A stretch of 64,000 nucleotides of DNA from Leptolyngbya sp. PCC 6406 (GTDB lineage: Bacteria > Cyanobacteriota > Cyanobacteriia > Phormidesmidales > Phormidesmidaceae): contig NZ_KI913949.1 in NCBI RefSeq assembly GCF_000332095.2, forward strand, positions 287,506 through 351,505, written 5' to 3'. Shown piece after piece: positions 55,922-58,234 of the stretch (positions are counted from its first letter, which is position 1; each line of letters opens with the position of its first letter). Below the pieces are notes generated by a model. It made no database searches. It was not told the DNA's origin and worked only from the letters and a program-made list of their open reading frames with translations. Made by a program: the position numbers and the translations under genes.

Positions 55922-57202
55922 TTAGGGCAATAGGGTTGCGATCGCACAATCCAACTTCTCCATCCCCTGCTGGACCTCTGTTGCCGACAGAATCAGCGGC
56001 GGTACCAGTCGCACCACCTGGGGACCAGCGGGCACAATGAGTAGCCCTGCGGTCATGGCTGCCTTGACCACGTCAATGGAGGTAAAGGCCATCTCAGGGT
56101 TGATCACTAGGCCATTGATCAGCCCCCAGCCCCGCACCTCGGCGAATGCTTGGGGATAGCGATCGCAAATCTGCTGCAAGCCTGCCCGCAGCCGTTCCCC
56201 TTGATGACGGGCATTGGCCACCAGTCCTGCGGACTCTAGGGTTTGGCATACCGCTAGAGCTACCCCACAGGCAAAGGGATTACCGCCAAAGGTGCTGGCA
56301 TGGTCTCCGGGCTCGAACACGGCATAGGCGTCTTTGCACAGGGTTGCCCCGATGGGGATGCCGCCCCCCAGCCCCTTGGCCAGGGTAAATACATCGGGTT
56401 CAATGCCCAGATGTTCATAGCCCCAGTATTGGCCAGTGCGGCCTACACCCACCTGCACCTCGTCTAGAATTAGCAAAATATTGCGATCGCTACAGATCTG
56501 CCGTACCGCCTGGAAGTAGGTCCGGTCTCCCGGTCGCACCCCCCCTTCCCCCTGGAGGGGTTCCAGCAAAATTGCCGCGACTTGGGGCTGGTCTGCATCG
56601 AGGGTTGCGATCGCACCCTCCAGTGCCGCTAGGTCGTTGTAGGGCACGTAATGAAAACCGGGCATCAGTGGGTCAAAGTGTTTCTGGTACTTGGCTTGCC
56701 CTGTAGCCGTCACCGTAGCCAGGGTGCGCCCATGGAAACTGGCCTGGGCCGTGATGATCACCGGAGTTTGGATGCCCCGTCGGGTGTGGGCATATTTCCG
56801 CGCTAGCTTAATCGCCCCCTCGTTGGCCTCGGCCCCGGAGTTACAGAAGAAGACTTTGTCGGCACAGGAATGGTCCACCAACCATTGAGCCAAGGCTCCC
56901 TGCTCTGGGATGTAGTAAAGGTTGGAAACGTGGTGGAGCTTCTGGATTTGTTGACTGACCACCGACACCATGACCGGGTGACTATGGCCCAGGGTACAGG
57001 TGGCAATGCCCGCGACAAAATCCAGGTACTCACGCCCTTCGGTGTCCCATAGGTGACATCCCTGACCTCGGTCGATGGCTAGGGGAAAGCGGCTATAGGT
57101 GGTCATGACTGCCTGATCAAAGGCAATGGGGTCAAAGGATTCCTGCACCGGGGGGGCAGAAACGGATTTCAGGGCACTATTCACAAGGGTCTTGAGGCTC
57201 AC
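55922..57202 (-). CDS. argD: Acetylornithine aminotransferase ArgD
   Basis: A 426-residue class III PLP aminotransferase: DTEGREYLDFVAGIATCTLG, FFCNSGAEANEGAIKLARKY, SFHGRTLATVTATGQ, LILDEVQVGVGRTG and the Schiff-base lysine in DVFTLAKGLGGGIPIGA. ArgD converts N-acetylglutamate semialdehyde to N-acetylornithine in arginine synthesis. The start is GTG at 57202 with AAGGAG upstream. It stands alone; the next gene on the same strand is 95 bases upstream. Confidence 0.95.
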   Translation of the reverse strand: MSLKTLVNSALKSVSAPPVQESFDPIAFDQAVMTTYSRFPLAIDRGQGCHLWDTEGREYLDFVAGIATCTLGHSHPVMVSVVSQQIQKLHHVSNLYYIPEQGALAQWLVDHSCADKVFFCNSGAEANEGAIKLARKYAHTRRGIQTPVIITAQASFHGRTLATVTATGQAKYQKHFDPLMPGFHYVPYNDLAALEGAIATLDADQPQVAAILLEPLQGEGGVRPGDRTYFQAVRQICSDRNILLILDEVQVGVGRTGQYWGYEHLGIEPDVFTLAKGLGGGIPIGATLCKDAYAVFEPGDHASTFGGNPFACGVALAVCQTLESAGLVANARHQGERLRAGLQQICDRYPQAFAEVRGWGLINGLVINPEMAFTSIDVVKAAMTAGLLIVPAGPQVVRLVPPLILSATEVQQGMEKLDCAIATLLP

Positions 57203-57297: not shown

Positions 57298-57918
57298 TCA
57301 AAATTCAAAATTCACTAGGGCTACCCAGCCAAATATCACAAATAACCCACCCCCTAGGGCGGTGAGCAGGCGCTCTGAGAGCTTACCAGCTACCAGACGG
57401 CCAACCATAACCGCGATCGCAGTGCAGATGGCATGACCCAGAATGGCTCCGGCCATGACCCCTAGAGGCGGATGGGCAGCGGAGAGGGTAATGGTGGCCA
57501 GTTGAGTGCGATCACCCCACTCTGCAACAAAGGTGAGGGCTAGTGCCTCCATGACAACGAGGCGTCCCGTGGTGTGGGCTTGGGACAAGGTGGAACAGGC
57601 TATGGCCTGCTCTGCTTCCGCCTGTTCATCACAGAGGCCGCTCTTGGAAGACATCTGGCTAGCATCGTACAGAAGTTTGAACCCAAAGCCGAGAAAAAGT
57701 GCGATCGCAGCTCCCTCGACATAGGGCCGGGGCAACAGCGTAAAGATCTGCCCCAACGCCACAGATAGGACAGTCATCCCCCCTAAAGCCAGTATTACCC
57801 CGAGAAATACCCAGCGACGGGGATGGCGCGTGGCCAAAATCAAGCCGATGAAAAAAGTCTTGTCCCCTAGCTCGGATAGGGTAATCAGCAATAATCCAGC
57901 GGTAAATCCCGTTAACAT
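57298..57918 (-). CDS. TMEM165/GDT1 family transporter (Mnx type)
   Basis: A 206-residue membrane protein with the family duplication: first half LSELGDKTFFIGLILATRHP, second half LTFVAEWGDRTQLATITLSA, each with the E-x-G-D-[KR]-[TS] ion motif, and six or seven membrane segments. Cyanobacterial members (Mnx of Synechocystis) move Mn2+, and sometimes Ca2+, out of the cytosol into thylakoid lumen or periplasm. A Mn-type riboswitch candidate lies in its leader. I use ATG 57918, eight bases after AGAGG, rather than GTG 57924. Confidence 0.92.
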   Translation of the reverse strand: MLTGFTAGLLLITLSELGDKTFFIGLILATRHPRRWVFLGVILALGGMTVLSVALGQIFTLLPRPYVEGAAIALFLGFGFKLLYDASQMSSKSGLCDEQAEAEQAIACSTLSQAHTTGRLVVMEALALTFVAEWGDRTQLATITLSAAHPPLGVMAGAILGHAICTAIAVMVGRLVAGKLSERLLTALGGGLFVIFGWVALVNFEF

Positions 57919-57924
57919 GCTCAC

Positions 57925-58125
57925 GTCCTCTGGGGGAATAGGGAGGCTGAGTGAGCATGATGAGAAGAGTTGCCAAACCTCACCCAGCCCACGACAGCCG
58001 TGGACTCAGTGAAGGTCTCGCTAGCAAAGCCGAAGCTTGCCGTCTGGACCAGGTTCATCACCAGTGTGTTGACCCAGACGTCGAATTACCGGCAGGCAAC
58101 TCGAAGCTACTCCCCTTCATAATCA
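57925..58125 (-). promoter_or_regulatory. Putative yybP-ykoY (Mn2+) riboswitch
   Basis: On the minus strand the leader of the TMEM165-type gene contains GAAGGGGAGTAGC (58118-58106) and, about 85 bases on, GCGAGACCTTCAC (58021-58009), the two conserved internal-loop strands of the yybP-ykoY motif (consensus GGGGAGUAG and GC-AGACCUU). Between them is the variable helix region (GTCTGGGTCAACACACTGG ... CCTGGTCCAGAC). After it GGGTGAGGTTTGGC can pair with the GACCTTCAC strand to form the alternative structure. Mn2+ riboswitches of this class often control UPF0016 genes, which is the family of the next gene. Confidence 0.8.
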
Positions 58126-58234
58126 ACTTTGAGAATATCCCAATCTGGATTCCGCTGCATAGCAGTTTTGGCCTAAAACTAGGGGCTGTGGACAATCAAA
58201 GCCAGATTCCTGGTTATGGACTGGTTATAGCCCC

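Follow-up and report, generated by a model that had tools for sequence, protein, structure and literature searches.

A candidate Mn2+ riboswitch with a four-strand translational platform in the mnx leader of Leptolyngbya sp. PCC 6406 and other cyanobacteria

In a window of 64,000 nucleotides from Leptolyngbya sp. PCC 6406 (contig NZ_KI913949.1, positions 287,506 to 351,505), a yybP-ykoY (Mn2+) aptamer is located on the minus strand at 58118-58011, just 5' of an Mnx-type gene at 57918-57298. We consider it highly probable that this leader acts as a riboswitch which senses Mn2+ and, when Mn2+ is high, turns ON the translation of mnx, where Mn2+ as the ligand and ON as the direction would follow from the aptamer class and from the logic of an exporter. 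The leader, mnx and the argD gene behind it are all on the minus strand of the window.

Results

The aptamer in the mnx leader

The initial annotation had proposed that both conserved strands of the yybP-ykoY aptamer occur in this leader, and both are indeed present, namely GGGGAGTAGC at 58115-58106 and GCGAGACCTT at 58021-58012, with a third mark, L3 (TCAACACACTGG, 58072-58061), between them. The Rfam model RF00080, a consensus of 33 relatives and a covariance model termed R1, which was built from 33 cyanobacterial leaders including that of the window, all support a yybP-ykoY-type four-way junction, which extends from P1.1 to P1.1 at 58011-58118. In this junction the 5' strand of P1.1, GAAGG (58114-58118), pairs with CCTTC at 58015-58011, while L1 consists of GGAGTA (58108-58113) on its 5' side and GAGA (58019-58016) on its 3' side. 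The L1 strands that mark the class were found as GGGGAGUAGC (5' strand, 58115-58106) and GCGAGACC (3' strand, 58021-58014); they are kept with few exceptions in the alignment of the 33 relatives, in which GGAGTA and GAGA are invariant or nearly so. L3 proper (TCAACACACT, 58063-58072) includes an A at 58067 whose column is the same in 33 of 33 sequences and which, by alignment, maps to the adenosine that contacts Mn2+ via its N7 in related aptamers, A48 of X. oryzae and A41 of L. lactis (PMC6754395). One base past this A, at 58066, the window has a C instead of the majority U.

The verification proposed at the outset, a search of the minus strand with the Rfam yybP-ykoY model, formally failed, as the match to RF00080 scored 28.7 bits where the cut-off is 45, yet this cut-off is not passed in any of the 386 genomes that were sampled from the phylum. 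As such, the cut-off test gauges the reach of the Rfam model and not the absence of the element. With an E-value threshold, RF00080 matched at 57953-58129 (E = 3.8e-6 over the 451 bases searched and 1.2e-5 over the whole genome), whereas at the gathering threshold nothing was reported at the leader and the whole window yielded only a tRNA. In the RF00080 alignment, the L1 5' strand is treated as unpaired and the 3' half is fitted badly, which probably accounts for part of the low score. Matches to RT-8 and potC in the same search scored far under the cut-off and were dismissed as chance. The fold of the aptamer alone is unremarkable (z-score -1.2) and single-sequence folding was hence left out of the evidence for the aptamer. 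Model R1 gives the leader 93.5 bits, a score to be read with the window's leader being one of its 33 training sequences.

Conservation among relatives

Comparative tests upheld the assignment to the yybP-ykoY class that the initial annotation had made. The consensus of 33 short leaders is a four-way junction with the order P1.1 - L1 - P1.2 - P2 - P3.1 - L3 - P3.2 - P4, and 23 of its 35 consensus pairs show two-sided changes (RNAalifold, n=33). P1.1 is GAAGG:CCUUC in nearly all of the leaders and GAAAG:CUUUC in three (L055, L059, L110) of the 80 Mnx loci described below. RF00080 matched at E 0.01 or better in 34 of 59 related genomes and over its cut-off in none; in the 30 loci fetched from these positive relatives, each match lies directly 5' of an Mnx homologue, with L020 being counted via a short match at a contig end.

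When 80 Mnx loci were fetched from public genomes by Mnx protein similarity, some of these genomes being shared with the 59 related ones, 70 of them proved to have all three aptamer marks, similarly spaced from the start, including representatives of Leptolyngbyaceae, Nodosilinea, Nostoc, Dolichospermum, Brasilonema, Coleofasciculus and others. The remaining 10 loci, among them Planktothrix, Arthrospira and Lyngbya aestuarii, lacked the marks and gave no R1 match. An apparent tandem aptamer in L082 was rejected, as its two copies flank a run of N and result from duplication during scaffolding.

The mnx gene, its start site and promoter

That a TMEM165-type gene is the target was borne out by the 206 aa product of mnx (57298-57918), a two-repeat GDT1/UPF0016 transporter that matches PF01169 in two stretches (E 2.6e-44, 149.9 bits against a cut-off of 27). 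The motif E-x-G-D-(K/R)-(T/S) is present twice, as ELGDKT and EWGDRT, with ELGDK and EWGDRT being invariant in an alignment of 15 homologues. By analogy with Mnx of Synechocystis (PMC11649195), the product would export Mn2+.

Translation probably starts at the ATG at 57918 and not at the GTG at 57924, since nearly all relatives use ATG and since the spacing to the Shine-Dalgarno sequence GAGGA (57926-57930, 7 nt 5' of the ATG) fits; the GTG, which shares one hairpin strand with the ATG, is less likely as it is too close to the Shine-Dalgarno sequence. Sequence inspection revealed a likely promoter -10 element, TATTCT (58132-58137, at -19), and in 45 of 62 non-redundant leaders the hexamer that most resembles a -10 box precedes GAAGG by 18 to 15 nt. 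This position of the -10 box before P1.1 suggests that the RNA starts at the aptamer, a few bases 5' of P1.1. A sigma-70 scan, which needs both hexamers, reported no promoter. On the other side of mnx, argD (acetylornithine aminotransferase, 55922-57202) begins 95 bases past the gene and is possibly co-transcribed with it.

Four strands with three exclusive pairings

The alternative pairing that had been suggested downstream of the aptamer proved to be real and larger than claimed, as four strands can form three mutually exclusive pairings (1:2, 2:3 and 3:4), each with covariation support. Strand 1 (GACCTTCACTGAGTCCAC, 58000-58017) holds the P1.1 3' strand and has strand 2 as its alternative partner; strand 2 (GTGGGCTGGGTGAGGTTT, 57975-57992) can pair with strand 1 or strand 3 and covaries with both; strand 3 (CTCATCATGCTCACTCAGCC, 57945-57964) can pair with strand 2 or strand 4; and strand 4 (GTGAGCATG, 57916-57924) comprises both the ATG (57918-57916) and the GTG (57924-57922) and is sequestered in the predicted fold. 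In the window, 57955-57945 of strand 3 and 57989-57979 of strand 2 form 11 bp with one G-U, and 57959-57951 of strand 3 forms 9 bp with strand 4.

These pairings were assessed in an alignment of 61 non-redundant leaders (A2). In the 1:2 helix, 95.4% of the cells are paired and five pairs have changed on both sides. In the 2:3 helix, 88.5% of the cells are paired and 8 of 12 pairs show two-sided change, amounting to 67 cells compared with 28.7 in shuffles, and only half of the pairing is left when the partner is shifted by one column. For the 3:4 helix, the assumption of one common alignment register was rejected, as two registers were found: in the window and Leptolyngbya-like genomes the helix buries the start codon, and in Nostocales and others it buries the Shine-Dalgarno sequence. 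In either case, the 3:4 helix, which conceals one of these two elements, and the competing 2:3 helix exclude each other, which is what is expected of a translational expression platform.

Duplex energies of own partners were better than those of swapped partners for 1:2, 2:3 and 3:4, with 0 of 5000 permutations being as good in each case; the control pairs 1:3 and 1:4 showed no own-partner advantage in these permutations, and for 2:4 the advantage was weak, with 20 of 5000 being as good. Column 50 in strand 2 covaries both with strand 1 (U-A/C-G) and with strand 3 (A-U/G-C), so that the triplet of strands 1-2-3 reads U-A-U in 24 and C-G-C in 19 leaders. Since these states need at least 13 changes on the Mnx protein tree, the triplet covariation does not go back to one ancestral event.

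Folding of nascent and full-length leaders

In nascent transcripts that were cut before strand 4, forcing P1.1 lowered the mean 1:2 pairing from 0.84 to 0.05 and raised the mean 2:3 pairing from 0.06 to 0.85, a rise that occurred in 61 of 61 leaders; for the window's own nascent transcript, the 1:2 pairing changed from 0.89 to 0.24 and the 2:3 pairing from 0 to 0.60. When full-length leaders were folded to equilibrium, a forced P1.1 changed the access to the ribosome-binding site from 0.22 to 0.25, which is not significant, and to 0.40 when upper strand 1 was also barred from pairing; a smaller full-length run gave 0.28 to 0.35 (p 0.02). Full-length equilibrium folding hence failed as a proof of the ON direction, and the small size of its effect means that the mechanism needs a kinetic, co-transcriptional choice. 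No intrinsic terminator was found in the leader, which favours a control of translation.

Distribution across the phylum and further copies

R1 finds the aptamer in 63 of the 386 sampled genomes of the phylum. Among the class matches listed, 60 of 62 precede a same-strand GDT1 domain by 452-608 nt; of the remaining two, one is an orphan copy in the genome of the window and the other has no GDT1 domain among the matches listed. Within the class, R1 is present in 60 of 88 genomes with four or more GDT1 domains and in 0 of 88 genomes having two, and in 28 genomes with four or more GDT1 domains (e.g. G070, G224 and G301) there was no clear aptamer, the best E-value being 0.02. One genome from the same family as that of the window (G004) carries two R1 aptamers (C1:1668595-1668706 and C2:679451-679591), each before its own GDT1 gene. 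Weaker R1 matches occur in G077, G094 and G097, which belong to the same phylum but are outside the class. As a GDT1 match is absent in G077 and G097, the aptamers there probably control other genes.

The orphan copy in the window's genome (C1:4207787-4207957; L033:4788-4958) comprises promoter, aptamer and half of the switch and is identical to the mnx leader in 166 of 171 bases, with GCGAGACC being changed to GGGAGACC. No gene was found behind it on its own strand; its neighbours are a DUF3352 gene on the opposite strand and, on the other side, a NACHT-type gene that has an ISL3 transposase close to it. The copy is probably a recent duplication that is decaying. The same genome has two adjacent single-domain GDT1 matches at C1:806385-806892, whose layout is like that of hmx1/hmx2 of Synechocystis, which encode constitutive importers (PMC11649195); the genome searches with RF00080 and R1 placed no aptamer near this pair. 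The element is also carried by Synechocystis salina LEGE 00031 (L049), where both Mnx and its leader nest among Nodosilinea/Leptolyngbya-like sequences, and horizontal transfer or assembly contamination is possible in this case. Given this nesting, we do not extend any claim to PCC 6803.

Discussion

The order in which the four strands are transcribed offers a probable route from Mn2+ to the start codon. At low Mn2+, the weak P1.1 would open and its 3' strand, strand 1, would pair with strand 2, which would leave strand 3 free to fold onto strand 4 and thereby bury the start codon. Mn2+ bound between L1 and L3 would stabilise P1.1, hold strand 1 and block the 1:2 pairing, such that strand 2, which is transcribed next, could capture strand 3 ahead of the synthesis of strand 4; the ribosome-binding site would then stay open and the exporter would be made. 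The decision would accordingly fall co-transcriptionally, with strand 2 meeting strand 3 before strand 4 exists.

An output on transcription, in which the same aptamer and its alternative helices steer Rho- or pausing-dependent termination, appears unlikely to us, albeit not negligibly so. Other yybP-ykoY switches act via antitermination (PMC6754395) and Rho would be compatible with all results presented here; however, the leader has no intrinsic terminator, and strand 4 invariably coincides with the start codon or the Shine-Dalgarno region, with covariation in the 3:4 pairing. The opposite direction would arise if the leader with a formed P1.1 settled into the equilibrium 3:4 helix, with Mn2+ turning mnx OFF by burying the start codon, and the full-length equilibrium folding does retain 3:4 in many sequences when P1.1 is forced. 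We nevertheless regard this as improbable, as strand 2 is conserved for pairing with both strand 1 and strand 3, an arrangement that is sensible only if a freed strand 2 disarms strand 3. Mn riboswitches before exporters are known to turn those exporters on, and an exporter that is shut by its own substrate would oppose Mn homeostasis.

Translational activation by Mn2+ is likewise preferred over the sensing of another signal, such as another divalent ion or pH. A related aptamer also docks stably with Cd2+ (PMC6754395) and GDT1 proteins can carry other cations, but with L1, L3 and the Mn-contacting adenosine all being conserved, there is very little chance that Mn2+ is not the ligand. Lastly, the score below the Rfam threshold and the decayed appearance of the orphan copy in the same genome might be taken as signs of a functionless riboswitch relic restricted to one genome. 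This is hardly credible, since the mnx copy retains the conserved positions, the pairing partners and the spacing that are common to its relatives and reaches 93.5 bits with the phylum model.

If mnx is indeed switched at the level of translation, the leader would provide a sensor of intracellular Mn2+ that is hidden from RNA-level studies. The leader also reveals a gap in standard annotation, as the aptamers of this phylum score under the Rfam cut-off and are hence not reported by annotation that relies on it. The link of a Mn exporter to photosystem II, which the initial annotation had put forward, is background. Water oxidation gives cyanobacteria a high demand for Mn, yet Mn excess kills them once Mnx is lost (PMC11649195). 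According to the same 2024 study, ManSR is the only Mn-dependent regulator known in cyanobacteria, and the mnx mRNA of Synechocystis is unchanged under Mn excess (PMC11649195), which fits translational control and equally no control; moreover, Synechocystis may lack the element. In a review, the cyanobacterial (Anabaena) UPF0016 member is credited to ManSR and not to a riboswitch (PMC7380456). In the literature searched, which omits most subscription journals, ManSR is the one case of Mn-dependent control described for cyanobacteria; neither a Mn riboswitch before a cyanobacterial mnx nor a four-strand relay in this aptamer class was found there. We give roughly even chances to the broader proposal that many cyanobacteria sense Mn excess mainly by a phylum-specific Mn2+ riboswitch, whose sampled members all score under the Rfam cut-off and which acts via a kinetic, co-transcriptional four-strand relay that controls translation of the exporter.

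Earlier work has established the aptamer class, the ligand that it binds and its occurrence with bacterial UPF0016 genes (PMC6754395; PMC7380456), so that we are dealing with a known riboswitch class of which the phylum-specific variant is new. A 2013 survey places yybP-ykoY in over 75% of taxonomic groups. In PMC7380456, which reviews Dambach et al. 2015, yybP-ykoY switches are described as preceding bacterial UPF0016 genes and 328 of 333 screened strains are cited for this association; these systems share with the window both the aptamer class and the transporter family. Mnx of Synechocystis sp. PCC 6803 (sll0615) shares the two-repeat GDT1 family by domain content, while in G070, a closed genome of the same genus as S. 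salina, no aptamer accompanies the four GDT1 domains. Like the RF00080 switches of L. lactis and X. oryzae, for which structures exist, the present leader has the L1 strands GGGGAGUAGC/GCGAGACC, the invariant adenosine of L3, the four-way junction P1-P4, P1.1 as the switching helix and a Mn homeostasis gene downstream. It differs from them in that the sampled cyanobacterial members remain under the Rfam cut-off and in that a four-strand platform, which hides the start codon or the Shine-Dalgarno sequence, is conserved across cyanobacteria. The mntP and alx leaders of E. coli are translational Mn riboswitches. With these, the mnx leader would share the opening of the ribosome-binding site by Mn2+, and what sets it apart by description is the third strand that is passed between the anti-aptamer strand and the start site.
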